Positions 55,974 through 63,349 of a stretch of DNA of 64,000 bases are shown piece by piece. The stretch's first letter is position 1; each line of letters opens with the position of its first letter. The notes under the pieces were generated by a model. The model saw only the letters and a program-made list of their open reading frames with translations, made no database searches and had not been told where the DNA came from. The translations under genes were made by a program, and so were the position numbers. The DNA is from Candidatus Gallacutalibacter pullicola. Lineage in GTDB: Bacteria > Bacillota > Clostridia > Oscillospirales > Acutalibacteraceae. The stretch spans positions 1 through 64,000 of the forward strand of contig DVHF01000036.1 of the NCBI GenBank assembly GCA_018712265.1, read 5' to 3'.

Positions 55974-56002
55974 TTGACTTATCATGAAAAAAGCGGTATA
56001 CT
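55974..56002 (+). promoter_or_regulatory. Promoter of the leader-ABC exporter operon
   Basis: TTGACT (55974-55979), 17-bp spacer, TATACT (55997-56002). Transcription would begin near 56009, 111 nt upstream of the leader ORF. A CTGCC/GGCAG stem at about 56018-56033 lies in the leader. Confidence 0.7.
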
Positions 56003-56119
56003 GATGTCACTGCCAGAAAGCGGCAGATTTCCGCGCGGCGTCCCGCTGTCCGGTTGGATGGAAAAAGGACTGCCCGCGCTGTTATCTGTTGCGAAACATG
56101 CGGAAAGGAGGCGGCATTG

Positions 56120-56203
56120 ATGACAATCATTATCTGTTCGGAAAAAGCATTTGTTTCTATGTTGTCGTGTTTGGACGTCATTCCGCCTGCTCTGCCTGAT
56201 TGA
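56120..56203 (+). CDS. Candidate 27-residue leader peptide of an attenuator
   Basis: ATG 56120 follows AAAGGAGG at 56104-56111, the best ribosome site in the region. The peptide is MTIIICSEKAFVSMLSCLDV + IPPALPD, hydrophobic with two cysteines and a PP pair near the end. The stop (56201) is 37 nt before a strong intrinsic terminator at 56240-56272. A frame this short with so strong a site in front of a drug-type ABC exporter is the layout of BmrB-bmrCD and Lmo0919-type ribosome-mediated attenuation, where a drug-stalled ribosome prevents terminator formation. That role is inference; the ORF and terminator are seen directly. Confidence 0.6.
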   Translation: MTIIICSEKAFVSMLSCLDVIPPALPD

Positions 56204-56237
56204 TCCCGCCTTGCTGCGGGAACTTTTACAGCCTGCA

Positions 56238-56274
56238 AGCGCCTCCGGCCGACAGTGCCGGGGGCGTTTTTTGC
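56238..56274 (+). terminator. Intrinsic terminator/attenuator upstream of the exporter
   Basis: CGCCTCCGGC (56240-56249) pairs with GCCGGGGGCG (56257-56266), one G-U pair, 7-nt loop, followed by TTTTTT (56267-56272). It lies between the leader ORF and the exporter start, so it would stop the exporter transcript unless disrupted. A CCCGC/GCGGG stem at 56205-56220 precedes it. Confidence 0.8.
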
Positions 56275-56347
56275 GCCCGGGAGGCGAATATACGGCGCGG
56301 GGATGCAGGCGGAAAAATGCACTCATGATAGGAAAGGGGGAGCTGTC

Positions 56348-58198
56348 TTGAACCCTTCAAAGACAAAGAAAACGCTGGGAGAGAAAAAGTTTGCGCTGGT
56401 TTGGCGTTTCCTGCGCCGTCATCTCTGGATTTTTGGTGCGGCGCTTTTGTGCTCGATGGGCAACACGGTCCTGAATTCTCTCACACCGCAGGTTGTGCGG
56501 TACACAGTGGACTCCGTCCTCGGCGGGGAGCCATTCCCCGATCTGCTCCTGCAGATTGTGCCGGAGCAGGTCCTCCGGTCGCTCCCGCCCATGCAGGTGC
56601 TGCTGGGCGCGGCAGGGCTGATCCTGCTGATTTCCGTCTGCGCCGGGCTGTGTATGTACGGCAGCCGGATGGGGACGGCCATAGGCTCGGAAAGCTTTGT
56701 AAAGTCACTGCGCGACGCGCTGTTTGAACACATCCAGCGTCTGCCTTATGCCTGGCATGTGCGCCACCGCACCGGCGAGATCATCCAGCGATGCACCTCC
56801 GACGTGGAGGTTGTGCGGAATTTCGTCACGAACCAGCTGCTGGAAGTATTTCGGATCGTGTTCCTTATTGGTTTTTCACTGGCAATCATGTTCTCCATGA
56901 ACAGCAGAATCACTCTGATCGCTTTGGCGTTTATGCCGGTGATTATGCTGTATTCCGGGATCTTTTATTCCAAGATTGCCCAGCGGTTCCTGACCGCCGA
57001 CGAGGCCGAGGGCGAGCTCTCCTCCACAGTGCAGGAAAATCTGACCGGCGTGCGTGTGGTGCGCGCGTTTGGGCGCGAAAAGTTCGAGGTGGAGCGGTTC
57101 GACCAGAAAAACAACCGCTTTTCTGGGCTGTGGATCCGCCTGGGCCGCCTGATGAGCGTCTATTGGGGCGTCGGCGATCTGATGACGGGCCTGCAGATTC
57201 TGACGATCCTCTGCGTCGGCGTCGTGGCTGCCGTCAACGGTGAGATCACGCTCGGCGAGTTCATCGCGTTCCTCTCATACAATTCCTCTCTGGTGTGGCC
57301 GGTGCGCGGCCTGGGACGCATCCTCTCCGAAATGAGCAAGGCTGGCGTGTCGATTCACCGTCTGGCCTATATTCTGGATGCCGAACCGGAGCAGGATCCG
57401 CCGGATGCCCTGCAGCCGCCGATGGATCGCGATATTGCCTTTGACCACGTGACGTTCGCGTATGAGGGCCACCGCGTACTGGATGACATCAGCTTTACGA
57501 TCCCGGCGGGCAGTACGTTCGCAATTCTGGGCGGAACGGGGAGCGGAAAATCGACGCTCGCCCATCTGCTGGACCGCCTGTACGATCTGCCGCCGGAAAA
57601 CGGGCGCATCACGATCGGCGGCGTGGATATCGCGCAGATCAGCCGTCCCTATCTGCGGCGGAATATCGGCATGGTGCTGCAGGAGCCGTTCCTGTTCTCC
57701 CGCACTATCCGCGAGAATATCGCCGCGGTGCGGCCCGGGGCCACGCTGCCCGAGGTTCGCCTGACCGCCGGGACGGCACACATCGATGAATCGATTCTGG
57801 AATTCCCGGAGGGGTATGATACGGTTGTCGGGGAGCGCGGCGTGACGCTGTCCGGCGGACAGAAGCAGCGCGTGGCGATTGCGCGCACGCTGATGCAGGA
57901 GGCCCCGATCCTGCTGTTTGACGATTCCCTCTCAGCAGTGGACGCGGAAACGGACGCGCAGATCCGCGCATCCCTTCGCGACGCAAAGGGCGGTTCGACT
58001 GTGATCCTGATCTCCCACCGCATTACGACCCTGATGCAGGCCGATAAGATCCTCGTTCTGCACAACGGACGCGTGGCCGAGTTGGGGACGCATGAGGAGC
58101 TGCTCCGGCAGAACGGGATTTACCGCGAGATTCACGACATCCAGATGAGCAGCGCGGACCGCAGCGCCCTCACAGACGAGCCGCAGATAAGCGAATAG
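56348..58198 (+). CDS. Heterodimeric ABC exporter subunit, BmrC/YheI-like
   Basis: 616 residues from TTG 56348, placed by AAAGGGGGAG upstream; an ATG at 56303 is a less suitable alternative because its region overlaps the attenuator end. Type I exporter: about six helices in residues 25-330 then the NBD with Walker A ILGGTGSGKSTLAHLLDRLY (about 395-410), Q-loop VLQEPFLFSRTI, signature VTLSGGQKQRVAIARTLM, Walker B ILLFDDSLSAVD. The Asp following the Walker B Asp replaces the usual catalytic Glu (DDS instead of DEA), the mark of the degenerate half of heterodimers such as BmrC/D. Partner is the gene at 58515. Confidence 0.88.
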   Translation: MNPSKTKKTLGEKKFALVWRFLRRHLWIFGAALLCSMGNTVLNSLTPQVVRYTVDSVLGGEPFPDLLLQIVPEQVLRSLPPMQVLLGAAGLILLISVCAGLCMYGSRMGTAIGSESFVKSLRDALFEHIQRLPYAWHVRHRTGEIIQRCTSDVEVVRNFVTNQLLEVFRIVFLIGFSLAIMFSMNSRITLIALAFMPVIMLYSGIFYSKIAQRFLTADEAEGELSSTVQENLTGVRVVRAFGREKFEVERFDQKNNRFSGLWIRLGRLMSVYWGVGDLMTGLQILTILCVGVVAAVNGEITLGEFIAFLSYNSSLVWPVRGLGRILSEMSKAGVSIHRLAYILDAEPEQDPPDALQPPMDRDIAFDHVTFAYEGHRVLDDISFTIPAGSTFAILGGTGSGKSTLAHLLDRLYDLPPENGRITIGGVDIAQISRPYLRRNIGMVLQEPFLFSRTIRENIAAVRPGATLPEVRLTAGTAHIDESILEFPEGYDTVVGERGVTLSGGQKQRVAIARTLMQEAPILLFDDSLSAVDAETDAQIRASLRDAKGGSTVILISHRITTLMQADKILVLHNGRVAELGTHEELLRQNGIYREIHDIQMSSADRSALTDEPQISE

Positions 58199-58204
58199 TT
58201 TTGC

Positions 58205-58500
58205 GGACCTGCGGTCAGCAGCAGGCTAAGCCTGCACGCGCCTGCGGCGGGCAGATCGCGCCCGCTCCCTCCGGTCGCCCAGATTGGCGGTATAATTGAA
58301 CTGATATGCCCGCGTTGCAGCCTGCCTGCTGATATTATATCATAATCCCTGACCGGTTCGCCGCCGCGACACAGTACCCGCGGCAACGGTGTTTCAGCGA
58401 CCGGAGGGAGCGATCCGCGTATTACGTCAAGGCTTAGCCTTGTCAGCGGCCGGAGGGAGCGCAGCGCGTATTACATGCAGGCTTAGCCTGCGCCTTGGAA
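58205..58500 (-). repeat. R1 repeat, copy G, splitting the exporter operon
   Basis: Core on the minus strand: TATAAT at 58339-58334 then ATCAGCAGGCAGGCTGCAAC and GCGGGCATAT, pointing back into the 3' end of the first exporter gene. On the plus strand GGCGGTATAATTG (58288-58293 for TATAAT) is a further -10-like box towards the second gene. Modules GCGACACAGTACCCGCGG, GCTCCCTCCGGTCGC, palindromes CAGGCTAAGCCTG (58218-58230), AAGGCTTAGCCTT (58428-58440), GCAGGCTTAGCCTGC (58479-58493). It occupies nearly all of the gap between the two exporter subunits. Confidence 0.8.
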
Positions 58501-58514
58501 AGGGGAGATTTATT

Positions 58515-60359
58515 GTGCCTGTTGGTTTTGATGACCAGGAATATACCCGGTCCTTTGACTGGTCCTGCTGGAAAAAGCTTGTGCCTTTCCTGCGCCCATA
58601 CCGCAAAACGCTGGCTATGGTGCTGGGGCTGAACCTTTTCTGCTCCGTCATTGATATCGCCCTGCCGCTGTTCCAGCGATACGCGATCGACCAGTTTATT
58701 TCACAAAAGACAATCGCAGGACTGCCGGTGATGGCCGTGCTCTACGCCCTCGCCATCCTGCTCCAGACGCTGGCCGTCGTCCTGTTCACCCGCGGCTCCA
58801 TGCGCATTGAAATGAACCTCGGAAAGGATATCCGCCGCGCCTGCTTCGTCCATTTGCAGACGCTGTCGCTTTCCTATTACAATGTAACGCCTGTGGGGTA
58901 TCTGCTCTCCCGCCTGATGAGCGATACGAACCGCATTTCCTCGATGATCGCCTGGAACGCCGTCGATATTTTCTGGGCGGCCGCCTATGTGATCGGGGTG
59001 TTCATCACGATGATGGCGCTCAATCCCTGGCTGGCGCTCACCGTGATCCTGATTGTACCGATCATTTCGCTGCTTACCGTGTGGTTCCAGGACCGCATCC
59101 TGCGCTGGAACCGCCGGGTCCGCAAGATGAATTCCCGCATCACCAGCGCCTATAATGAGGGGATCATGGGCGCGCGCACCTCTAAGACGCTTGTCATCGA
59201 GGAGCAGAACAGCGGGGAGTTCCGCCAGGTGACGCAGGATATGAAATCCGCCTCTGTCCGTGCCGCACGGCTCAACGCCGTATATATCCCGCTGATCCTG
59301 TTTTTCAGCTCGCTGACGACGGCCATCGTACTGGCGCGCGGCGGCTCGATGGTGCTGTCCGGCACGCTGCTGATCGGTACGCTCTCCGCCTTTACCTCAT
59401 ATGCGGTGGGGATTTTTGAGCCGATCCAGCAGATTGCCCGCAATATCGCGGATCTGCTTTCGCTTCAGGCAAATATTGAGCGTGTGATGGGACTGCTCGA
59501 TCAGGAGCCCATGATCACCGATTCGCCCGAGGTGGAGGCCCGGTACGGCACCGTATTCGAGCCGAAAAAGGAGAACTGGGAACCGATCCGCGGCGAAATT
59601 GAATTTCAGGATGTGAGCTTCCGGTATCCGGACGGGAACGAGGACGTGCTGAGTCATTTCAATCTGAAGATCCCGGCCGGATCCACTGTGGCGATTGTAG
59701 GCGAAACCGGTGCGGGGAAAAGCACCCTGGTGAATCTGGCGTGCCGCTTCTTTGAGCCTACCGCCGGCAGGATCCTGATAGACGGGCGCGATTACCGGGA
59801 GCGCAGCCAGCTTTGGCTGCACAGCAGTATCGGCTATGTGCTGCAAAGTCCGCACCTGTTTTCCGGTACAGTGATGGACAACATCCGGTACGGCCGTCTG
59901 GACGCCACCGACGAGGAAGTGATCGCGGCGGCAAAGGCTGTCTCTGCCGATCAGGTGGCGGAAAAGCTGGAAAACGGCTATCTGAGCGATGTCGGCGAAG
60001 GAGGCGATCTGCTTTCCACCGGAGAAAAGCAGCTGATTTCGTTTGCGCGCGCCGTGCTGGCCGATCCGCGTATCTTCGTGCTTGACGAGGCAACCTCCTC
60101 GATCGATACGCAGACGGAGCAGCTCATCCAGAAAGCCACAGAACGCCTGCTGCATGGGCGCACATCGTTCCTGATTGCGCACCGGCTTTCCACCATCCGG
60201 CAGGCCGATATGATCCTGGTTGTCCGGGACGGGCGAATCATCGAGCAGGGGACGCATACGGAGCTGCTCCGCAAAAAGGGATATTATCACGATCTGTACC
60301 GCCGTCAGTTTGAGGAGGAGGCATCCGCCCGCCGCCTGCGTCAGGAAGAGGCCGTCTGA
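58515..60359 (+). CDS. Heterodimeric ABC exporter subunit, BmrD/YheH-like
   Basis: 614 residues from GTG 58515 (GGAAAGGGGAG upstream). Six helices in residues 25-320, NBD with Walker A IVGETGAGKSTLVNLACRFF, Q-loop VLQSPHLFSGTVMDNIRYG, signature LSTGEKQLISFARAVL, Walker B IFVLDEATSSIDTQTE with the catalytic Glu, His-switch IAHRLSTIRQADMI. The signature reads LSTGE instead of LSGGQ, as in the canonical-site partner of BmrC-type exporters. With the upstream subunit it forms one degenerate and one active ATP site and should expel drugs or lipid-like compounds. Its 3' end overlaps the convergent kinase gene by 19 bp. Confidence 0.9.
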   Translation: MPVGFDDQEYTRSFDWSCWKKLVPFLRPYRKTLAMVLGLNLFCSVIDIALPLFQRYAIDQFISQKTIAGLPVMAVLYALAILLQTLAVVLFTRGSMRIEMNLGKDIRRACFVHLQTLSLSYYNVTPVGYLLSRLMSDTNRISSMIAWNAVDIFWAAAYVIGVFITMMALNPWLALTVILIVPIISLLTVWFQDRILRWNRRVRKMNSRITSAYNEGIMGARTSKTLVIEEQNSGEFRQVTQDMKSASVRAARLNAVYIPLILFFSSLTTAIVLARGGSMVLSGTLLIGTLSAFTSYAVGIFEPIQQIARNIADLLSLQANIERVMGLLDQEPMITDSPEVEARYGTVFEPKKENWEPIRGEIEFQDVSFRYPDGNEDVLSHFNLKIPAGSTVAIVGETGAGKSTLVNLACRFFEPTAGRILIDGRDYRERSQLWLHSSIGYVLQSPHLFSGTVMDNIRYGRLDATDEEVIAAAKAVSADQVAEKLENGYLSDVGEGGDLLSTGEKQLISFARAVLADPRIFVLDEATSSIDTQTEQLIQKATERLLHGRTSFLIAHRLSTIRQADMILVVRDGRIIEQGTHTELLRKKGYYHDLYRRQFEEEASARRLRQEEAV

Positions 60360-63349
60360 GACGCTTTGAAAGCGGCCTTGCGCCACAGCTCGGCTTCTTC
60401 TGTCCAGCCCTGATCCTCCGACAATTTTATCACATCAGTGCCGCGATCCATGATTATCTTGCGGCGTTCCGGCGGGGAGAGCTGTTCCATCGTCGGAAAT
60501 GCCTTGGAGAGCAGTTCCCGTGCCTCGGCCGGATACCCCACCCAGACGCAGAGCTTTGCTGTGGTGATCAGGGAAGATACATAAAGGGATGTGGGACGTT
60601 CCCATTTCTCCATTTCCGTGCAGACGTGCAGCATGGTCCGGCAGGCCGATTCGTCGTCGTTCATTTCCTGATAGGCCTGCGCCGCGGTAATTTCAAAATC
60701 CGTAAAATCCTGTCCGTTCTCCCGGCACCACCGCTTGGCCAGCCCACATAGCCGGATTGTCTCCCCGTATTCTTTCTTATCGAGGGCTTCCTCGCAGGCG
60801 CGCAGACGCACGATCCGTTCTCGATCCGGCCCCCATGCGCTTTCCGGTACGAACATCTCCCGATGCTTCGGTATGCGGTTTTCCGCCGCAAAATACTCGG
60901 TCAGCGGATTGGAAGGGATCCCCAGCAGTCTGGCGAATTCCGTGCTCAATGACAGCGCGTGGTACATACATTCCGGATAATAATCGGAGTCCCTGTATTC
61001 CCGCAGCCATTCCGGCAGGTTCATGGAGAGCCGCAGCGCCGATTCCCAATGTCCCTGAATCCGCAGCAAATGACACATGAACTCCGTCACGGCGGTGCAC
61101 AGCGGCGCGCTGCCTGCCCAGTCAAGATAACCGGCCAGATATTCCACGCCGCGGGTGATCTCCTCGTCCGGCGCGCCGTAGTTGCTTTCCAGATGGAAAA
61201 ACAGACATTCCACAAACCGGTACAGCGCCTGCATATCGGGATGGAGCTCGCGCCAGCCGGTCTGGCGGACGAGCGGATGGACAGTGAGGATATCCGCCTC
61301 GCTGCGGCGGATCCAACCCCGTCTGATCAGCTGGTGGAGGACGTCCGGATCGAAGTCCGGCGTCATGACGAAATCCTTCACCGACAGCCCGGAATCTGAA
61401 ATGGGCAGGGCGAAGCCCATCATCCGCCGTTCCTCCTCGGATAGATCGGCCATGCGGAACAGCGCCGTCAGATGGTCCTGGATGCGGGCCATCCTGCCCT
61501 CCCGATCCTTGGCGGTGGATACGCTGACGAATGCTTTGCTGTTCCAGTCGTTTTGCGTCATCTTTTCCAGCAGGGCCTCCGGCGTGAGCTTCGGAACACT
61601 GTATTTCAGTGTGCGTGCCATCAGCTCTACCGTCAGAGTGTGGCTCTCTACAGCGTCGATCAGTCTGTCCGCCGCTTCGTCAGACAAATCGGAGACGAAC
61701 CGGCGCATAAGCCGGTGCAGGAGGGGACGCGGCAGCGTGTCCGCCTCGATACCTCCTTCCGCACGGGAACGGGTAGTCACCAGCAGCCCCATAGGGAGCG
61801 CGCAGAGCTGCCGGAATTCCGGCTCGCTGATCAGACCGGAAAATCCGCCGAACCCGCCGTCCATACCGTCGAGAATCAGCAGATCGTTTTCGCTCCGTTC
61901 TCCCAGCAGGCCGAGCACCTCCCGGCAGATCTGTTCCTCCGGTTTTTCCCTGCCGCGGACGTCCTTTCGATCGTATCCGCTGAAGGCGTCGGCGATGGGG
62001 CCTGTGATGGTTCGGCGGGCGGAGCCCTGAAAGCGGACAAAATATGCCTGTCCCCGCGTATAGCGGCGGGCGAATTCAATGGCCAGCTCCGTTTTTCCCA
62101 TACCGGCGAAGCCCCAGAGGATCACGGGCTTCCGTTTTTCGCGCAGGGCGCGATCCAGTCTGCTGATCTGTTCCTCACGGCCGAGAAATTCTCCCTCCGC
62201 CAGTGCGGAAAAAGAGAGGGCAAGCTGATTTTTTGGCGGCCGGGTGAGTTCCAGAAGCTTTTCTGCATCTTCCAGAAGCTCGGCGGCGCTCTGGCAGCGT
62301 TCTGCCGGATCCAAACACAGGGATTTGTCCAGAATGTGCTGGATCAGCCGCAGGGATTCCGGCGTGCAGCCCAGCTTTTCCCCCTCGGAGGGGAGGAGGC
62401 GCGCGAGGGACGCGCTTTCTGTCAGCATCCGATCTCGGCCGTTTTCCACATAGGTGCGGCCCCGGAGCAGGAACAGAAGCAGCCGCCCGACGGAATAAAC
62501 GTCTGCGGCCGGCGTCAGCTGTAAGGTTCCGTCGTTGTCCCAGACGATCTCCGGGGCTGTATAGCCCGGAGTGCTGAATACCATACGATCCCGGATCCGG
62601 GCTGTTTTCTTCACGCCCGCGGGATTGTCAAAATCTGTGGAATCGTCAAACACTCTCGCGCATCCGAAATCCAGCAGGCAGCCAAAGCCGAGCTCGCCCT
62701 TTTCCGTCCGGGTGTCGGCGAAGAAGATGTTCTCCGGCTGCACATCGCCGTACAGGCAGCCGGCGTTATGGACCAGCTCCACGGCCCGGAGGGTTTCCGC
62801 CAGAATCTGCGCGATGGTGTAAAGGCTCGGACGGCCTCCGGTGCGGAGAGGGTGTCCCTCCTCCGGGGGCAGGGAACATTCCTTTAAAAGCTGGGGCAGG
62901 AACATCCCCACCCCCGACATATCCCGCAGGACGAGGAAGCTGCCTTGCGGAGCGGCAAATCCGCCCTCTGCTGTCTCCACTGCCATTTCTTTCGGGGCGT
63001 CCAACACGGGGATGCTCCTGCCGGAGACGACAGCCAACTTCTGGCTGATCTCCGTCTCCATCAGCATACGTTCCCGCGCCTTTTTCAAAATGTGATCGGA
63101 ATCCTCGTCTGTTGCAGTCAGGATGCCGTGTTCCCGGCGCAGCCGTCCGGCAAGCTCTCTGGGAAAGCACTCTTTTATGCCGAACGGCAGGGCGTTTCCC
63201 TCCTTCTCGGCGGAATAAAAAATGGAGCTGCCCCCAAAACTGATCGCTTCATGCAGAATATACCGATTCTTTTCGCAGCGGATCCGCTCCCTTTCCCAGC
63301 GGAGCACCGTTCCGGCGGGCAGAGGCTCTCTGACATCTCGATTTTCCAT
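60341..63349 (-). CDS. Protein kinase-STAND ATPase fusion
   Basis: 1002 residues; ATG 63349 follows GGAGGTGTAAT, with only one base between the upstream stop and the start, so the two are an operon. Residues about 25-370: Ser/Thr kinase fold with the ATP lysine in FGIKECFPRELA, catalytic loop CLYGDVQPENIFF (HRD replaced by YGD, catalytic Asp kept), DFG in LLDFGCARVF, and TPGYTAPEIVWD. Residues about 395-600: NB-ARC/STAND ATPase with FLGREEQISRLDRAL, Walker A GFAGMGKTELAIEFARRY, Walker B LLILDGMDGG and sensor LLVTTRSRA. Residues about 640-700 look winged-helix; 720-1000 are TPR-like helical repeats. It should be a ligand-triggered switch or signalling scaffold. Confidence 0.82.
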   Translation of the reverse strand: MENRDVREPLPAGTVLRWERERIRCEKNRYILHEAISFGGSSIFYSAEKEGNALPFGIKECFPRELAGRLRREHGILTATDEDSDHILKKARERMLMETEISQKLAVVSGRSIPVLDAPKEMAVETAEGGFAAPQGSFLVLRDMSGVGMFLPQLLKECSLPPEEGHPLRTGGRPSLYTIAQILAETLRAVELVHNAGCLYGDVQPENIFFADTRTEKGELGFGCLLDFGCARVFDDSTDFDNPAGVKKTARIRDRMVFSTPGYTAPEIVWDNDGTLQLTPAADVYSVGRLLLFLLRGRTYVENGRDRMLTESASLARLLPSEGEKLGCTPESLRLIQHILDKSLCLDPAERCQSAAELLEDAEKLLELTRPPKNQLALSFSALAEGEFLGREEQISRLDRALREKRKPVILWGFAGMGKTELAIEFARRYTRGQAYFVRFQGSARRTITGPIADAFSGYDRKDVRGREKPEEQICREVLGLLGERSENDLLILDGMDGGFGGFSGLISEPEFRQLCALPMGLLVTTRSRAEGGIEADTLPRPLLHRLMRRFVSDLSDEAADRLIDAVESHTLTVELMARTLKYSVPKLTPEALLEKMTQNDWNSKAFVSVSTAKDREGRMARIQDHLTALFRMADLSEEERRMMGFALPISDSGLSVKDFVMTPDFDPDVLHQLIRRGWIRRSEADILTVHPLVRQTGWRELHPDMQALYRFVECLFFHLESNYGAPDEEITRGVEYLAGYLDWAGSAPLCTAVTEFMCHLLRIQGHWESALRLSMNLPEWLREYRDSDYYPECMYHALSLSTEFARLLGIPSNPLTEYFAAENRIPKHREMFVPESAWGPDRERIVRLRACEEALDKKEYGETIRLCGLAKRWCRENGQDFTDFEITAAQAYQEMNDDESACRTMLHVCTEMEKWERPTSLYVSSLITTAKLCVWVGYPAEARELLSKAFPTMEQLSPPERRKIIMDRGTDVIKLSEDQGWTEEAELWRKAAFKASQTASS

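Follow-up and report, generated by a model that had tools for sequence, protein, structure and literature searches.

A candidate ribosome-mediated transcription attenuator with a Shine-Dalgarno-built anti-antiterminator ahead of an ABC exporter pair in Clostridia

The exporter operon and its leader

The window (the whole 64,000-nt stretch of DNA analysed here) comes from a genome of 2.74 Mb whose named relatives are Clostridia. It carries a two-gene operon for a heterodimeric ABC exporter, preceded by a leader with its own promoter, small ORF and terminator:

55974..56002, +: sigma-70-type promoter TTGACT-17-TATACT (TTGACT at 55974-55979, TATACT at 55997-56002; 10/12 matches)
56019..56092, +: strong stem-loop of the 5' UTR (fold of 56009-56092, -37.6 kcal/mol)
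56105..56111, +: Shine-Dalgarno (SD) sequence AAGGAGG of the leader ORF (anti-SD duplex, -16.3 kcal/mol)
56109..56119, +: segment 1, the SD-overlapping strand AGGCGGCATTG, which pairs with segment 2 (AGGCGG/CCGCCT helix)
56120..56203, +: leader ORF with ATG start, 27 aa, MTIIICSEKAFVSMLSCLDVIPPALPD
56178..56188, +: segment 2, the late-ORF anti-SD strand TCATTCCGCCT; in relatives also the antiterminator strand
56204..56221, +: small hairpin immediately 3' of the leader stop codon (-10.5 kcal/mol)
56237..56272, +: intrinsic terminator, segments 3 and 4 (stem 56237-56249/56257-56266, T6 tract 56267-56272, -24.8 kcal/mol)
56348..58198, +: ABC exporter half-transporter, BmrC-like, TTG start (Walker B and following D read FDDS, a degenerate site)
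58515..60359, +: second ABC half-transporter, BmrD-like, GTG start (canonical LDEATS, altered signature LSTGEKQ)

Both exporter subunits combine the PF00664 (ABC_membrane) and PF00005 (ABC_tran) domains. An FDDS site in one subunit, with LDEATS and an altered signature in the other, is characteristic of heterodimeric exporters with a degenerate site, among them BmrCD, LmrCD and TM287/288. Judged by its sequence, the pair is of the BmrC/BmrD type in its fusion of membrane and ATPase domains, its two-gene operon and its single degenerate catalytic site. Subunit 1 scores 316 bits with BmrC, 331 with TmrAB and 450 with P-glycoprotein, and subunit 2 scores 307 with BmrD and 337 with TmrAB. No special closeness to BmrC/BmrD above other exporters was thus found, and since TmrAB and P-glycoprotein score higher, "BmrCD-like" denotes a broad type rather than orthology. 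Between the two genes lies an insert of about 300 nt (58199-58514), rich in repeats and with inverted arms AGGCTTAGCCT and CGCTCCCTCCGGTCGC. The former occurs nine times in the window against an expected 0.01, both in pairs spaced by some 200 nt (20321/20515, 31706/31904 and 58223/58430) and as single copies (33333 and 47108), in the manner of a MITE/REP-like element. Convergent with the exporter operon, the complementary strand encodes a 1002-aa protein with Ser/Thr kinase and AAA_16 domains (60341-63349, -).

The initial annotation had placed a promoter, a strong ribosome site, a short ORF and a terminator with six T's in this order ahead of the exporter, and each of these was found where it had put them. 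The TTGACT/TATACT pair is the top promoter-like site between 55.4 and 56.9 kb, and the fold of the 267-nt leader is better than that of all 200 of 200 dinucleotide shuffles (z -3.0). A consensus terminator scanner called no terminator at the window leader, probably because its greedy stem extends into the U-tract. The distance from the -10 element to the ORF is 117 nt, against mostly 32-73 nt in relatives with a -10 call, the window's 5' UTR being longer on account of the stem-loop at 56019-56092. Within this window-specific 5' hairpin lies a further ORF of 20 aa (MEKGLPALLSVAKHAERRRH, 56058-56120), whose SD is poor and whose end overlaps the start of the leader ORF (TGATG). The cobalamin-riboswitch-like look of the 5' UTR (GGAAAAAGGACUGCCCGCGC) was dropped as no model scored. 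More generally, Rfam gave no match at gathering score in the window or at the leaders of eight relatives, and relaxed thresholds returned only chance terminator-like matches. The leader peptide matches no Pfam or NCBIfam model, in which sense it is new, as had been suspected, and the leader DNA as a query found no match in 60 related genomes.

A recurrent leader with a drifting peptide and a conserved pairing

We collected 118 regions upstream of exporter orthologues from Clostridia, 113 of them long enough to be scored under fixed criteria. A small ORF with a strong SD followed by a terminator was seen in 43 of the 113, a count in which related loci are not independent, yet which draws on many genera and stands against empty controls: 0/113 reverse complements, 0/226 dinucleotide shuffles and 0/63 regions upstream of non-orthologous ABC exporters. 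Likewise, when every ORF of 250 aa or more in the fetched loci was surveyed (449 in all), there were 14 positives, all 14 of which precede orthologues of the exporter. A promoter of the same type and spacing (at least 10/12 matches) lies before the small ORF in 30 of 45 strict cases, where 2.5 would be expected. The arrangement of promoter, leader, small ORF and terminator is therefore above chance at the level of the family, even though a detectable leader is absent from about 60% of the orthologues, and the order of parts first noted in the window is borne out.

The peptides encoded by these leaders are unrelated among relatives, even inside one genus, as in the leaders of four genomes of the same genus (L098, MTKKRIDNHMSF...; L099, MIGKNRITAQNN...; L101, MIGKNRITYRNN...; L102, MINLVYTCKERD...). 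Such divergence within a genus points to selection on the RNA and not on the peptide. Indeed, in nearly all cases the last third of the ORF contains a complement to the strand that overlaps the SD and continues past it (the 1:2 pairing), for example GCGGACAGA/UCUGUCCGC in L099, CAGGCAAAAU/AUUUUGCCUG in L120, GCGGGAAAAA/UUUUUCCCGC in L012 and GGUCGUG/CACGACC in farther relatives. Compared with shuffled ORFs, this complementarity has a mean z of -2.10 over 45 loci and reaches p<=0.05 in 26 of them. In the clade of the window, an AGGCGG/CCGCCT helix is held in one register across 11 distinct sequences and collapses when slid by a single column. Five of its pairs show changes on both sides, and double-change cells number nine where shuffles give 3.4. 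Of the cells in this alignment, 84% are paired against 77% in shuffles and 27-47% in slid controls, although the strings were excised by hand in the best-pairing register, so that the 45-locus test with shuffled ORFs is the fairer one. The window itself has the AGGCGG/CCGCCU helix with two flanking pairs in the register of its clade, at a z of -1.0 against shuffles when taken alone; in folding predictions for growing untranslated transcripts, this helix forms first and the terminator afterwards. At the level of the clade, the covariation of the 1:2 pairing identifies, as far as sequence can, an anti-antiterminator that is exclusive with the antiterminator.

Read-through of the terminator would further require segment 2 to pair with the 5' arm of the terminator (the 2:3 pairing). 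By duplex energy, this pairing beats shuffles at p<=0.05 in 20 of the 43 loci, mainly those of relatives; examples are GUCAGAAGUGUUUUUGCC with GGCGGUUAAAGCAUCUCUGAC in L106 and CGGCCUAUG with CCAUAGGUC in L174. A ribosome halted near codon 8 is predicted to leave the late ORF able to pair with the terminator's 5' side. Early stalls are predicted to sequester the terminator arm at 0.7-0.9, a value that drops past about codons 12-18 (L101-L106, L174, L182, L190), and in 15 of 15 modelled relatives sequestration is higher with an early stall than without a ribosome. In these models, the relatives respond to stall position as a classic 1:2/2:3/3:4 attenuator would. The window departs from this pattern. 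Its 2:3 pairing is no better than shuffles by duplex energies (z +0.6), which were used in place of the fraction-sequestered statistic (p 0.79), the latter being too blunt for GC-rich arms. In the truncated-transcript model, its arm sequestration is 0.67 without a ribosome and 0.46-0.65 with stalls at codons 1-10, the former value arising partly from a 7-bp pairing of the SD with the terminator arm. Since its own 1:2 and 2:3 pairings are weak and its SD can also pair with the terminator arm, the switch of the window is argued from its clade, common descent and layout. An earlier suggestion that 56205-56220 serves as the antiterminator strand was rejected, as this segment folds mostly into its own hairpin (56204-56221) and is not a conserved element, whereas the 1:2 and 2:3 pairings are; hairpins resembling it also follow the stop codon in L098-L101.

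A model for attenuation and its alternatives

We consider it likely that the leader is a transcription attenuator in the style of trp and bmrB for a heterodimeric ABC drug-type exporter, governed by the ribosome and with an anti-antiterminator derived from the ribosome-binding site. Its parts, their conserved order, the 1:2 complementarity with its covariation and the 2:3 pairing in many relatives are observed, and from these we infer the logic of ribosome position and read-through. In an unstressed cell, the first ribosome would finish the 27-codon ORF and cover segment 2, leaving the terminator (3:4) to form and transcription to stop near 56272. Were no ribosome loaded, segment 1 (the SD) would pair with segment 2, hiding the ribosome site and again freeing the terminator. 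If a translation inhibitor held the pioneer ribosome within about the first 12 codons, segment 1 would be masked, allowing segment 2 to base-pair with the 5' strand of the terminator (2:3), whereupon RNA polymerase would read through into the exporter genes.

The first of the alternatives supposes that the SD segment itself is the antiterminator, with segment 1 (GGAGGCG) pairing with the 5' arm of the terminator (CGCCUCC). Termination would then be favored by a ribosome at or close to the SD, and read-through would follow when initiation is blocked or a ribosome stalls on segment 2. In the window, this 1:3 pairing has seven contiguous pairs (GGAGGCG:CGCCUCC; best duplex, -17.5 kcal/mol) and it recurs in L098, L099, L101 and L102. 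It is, however, broken or reduced in L097, L100, L103, L104 and L106, a CCTCC in GC-rich terminator arms is expected by chance, and the 1:2 pairing of the window is both earlier-forming and more stable (-19.9 kcal/mol). As relatives break the pairing, we regard it as an improbable rival to the attenuator with the 1:2 anti-antiterminator. Less probable still is a terminator that acts as a constitutive damper or closes a short independent RNA, read-through being unregulated. The weak antiterminator and very stable terminator of the window would suit it, but it leaves unexplained both the covariation of the SD with the late ORF and the recurrence of the small ORF and terminator solely before this exporter family. 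A functional small protein as the product of the ORF, with the terminator just tuning expression of the operon, strikes us as slightly more doubtful again: the leader SD is strong and BmrB is translated in Bacillus subtilis (PMC4191407), yet the peptide is unconserved among close relatives and within the genus, and only end codons with a role in RNA structure are kept. Finally, although it shares the 1:2/2:3/3:4 logic with trp-type leaders, an amino-acid attenuator with ribosomes stalling at codons for a scarce amino acid is the least credible of all, because regulatory codons are lacking (the window peptide has no repeated one except three Ile, and no residue is commonly enriched in the early codons of the relatives' peptides) and the genes downstream are exporters, not biosynthetic ones.

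Comparison with known attenuators

Ribosome-mediated attenuation of an ABC exporter is already known from bmrBCD, and a similar fold has been proposed for patAB (PMC4319486). The bmrB-bmrC-bmrD system of B. subtilis (PMC4191407) resembles that of the window in its leader ORF, terminator, predicted antiterminator (weak in the window) and anti-antiterminator, and downstream pair encoding a heterodimeric ABC multidrug exporter. It differs in that bmrB is a 53-codon GTG ORF with all three structures inside the coding region (nt 60-162; PMC4191407), whereas the window leader has 27 codons and an ATG start, with the terminator 33 nt past the stop codon. Further, the SD region supplies the window's putative anti-antiterminator, a role that it does not have in bmrB as published (PMC4191407). 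The comparative evidence favors the initial annotation in its reading of an attenuator and its comparison with BmrB-bmrCD; its term "antibiotic-responsive" is carried over from BmrCD (PMC4191407), and the 2:3 pairing of the window is weak. Lincomycin, erythromycin and chloramphenicol induce read-through into bmrCD in B. subtilis; this read-through needs translation of bmrB and drops when the bmrB start is destroyed (PMC4191407). This drop fits an anti-antiterminator formed in untranslated RNA. By analogy with BmrCD (PMC4191407), translation inhibitors or antibiotics may be the inducing signal at the locus of the window, though the sequence names no inducer.

The patA attenuator of Streptococcus pneumoniae is likewise comparable in its RibEx-predicted terminator, antiterminator and anti-antiterminator before the PatAB ABC exporter; a leader peptide is unmentioned there, and the inducers are fluoroquinolones or DNA damage (PMC4319486). 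With attenuation of the trp operon, the leader shares mutually exclusive 1:2, 2:3 and 3:4 pairings governed by ribosome position, but here segment 1 is the ribosome-binding site, there is no codon run and exporter genes lie downstream. The vmlR (PMC9226507), mef/mel (PMC4335068) and msrD (PMC10314930) leaders similarly tie transcription attenuation to ribosome-targeting antibiotics, ahead of another class of gene (ARE-ABCF and macrolide genes). The parallel previously drawn with Lmo0919/Vga-type systems falls short, since ABC-F proteins are a different protein class from the exporter. Moreover, a specific macrolide-arrest peptide operates in msrD and mef/mel. In the window family the peptides are unconserved, and their freedom to drift speaks for slow elongation being sensed in general rather than for a peptide that arrests with a particular drug.

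More tentatively, and with rather less confidence than for the single locus, we propose a widespread class of attenuators in Clostridia in which the leader ribosome-binding site is the anti-antiterminator strand, and ribosome loading and position together gate the switch. In such a class, elongation blockers would induce, initiation blockers and untranslated RNA would lead to termination, and the peptide would be free to drift, making the leader a general sensor of slow elongation. A search of the open literature, with most subscription papers outside its reach, returned no description of this leader family in Clostridia or of its SD-built anti-antiterminator. If the proposal is true, a ribosome sensor that does not depend on the peptide turns on a drug-type exporter in many uncultured Clostridia of the gut, and a mechanism proven for one B. 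subtilis exporter would extend to a large clade. It would also separate elongation from initiation inhibitors by prediction, and make sensor leaders recognizable from sequence by the complement of the SD in the late ORF, a search pattern for leaders missed by peptide similarity.

A distinct version of the leader is seen in more distant Clostridia (L158-L192, e.g., L174, L182 and L190), with the SD strand AAAGGAGGTCGTG, the late-ORF strand GCACGACCT (encoding ARP, LRP or NRPP in the peptide) and a terminator of the form CCATAGG...CCTATGG, often as two tandem terminators. This version is possibly a new RNA family.
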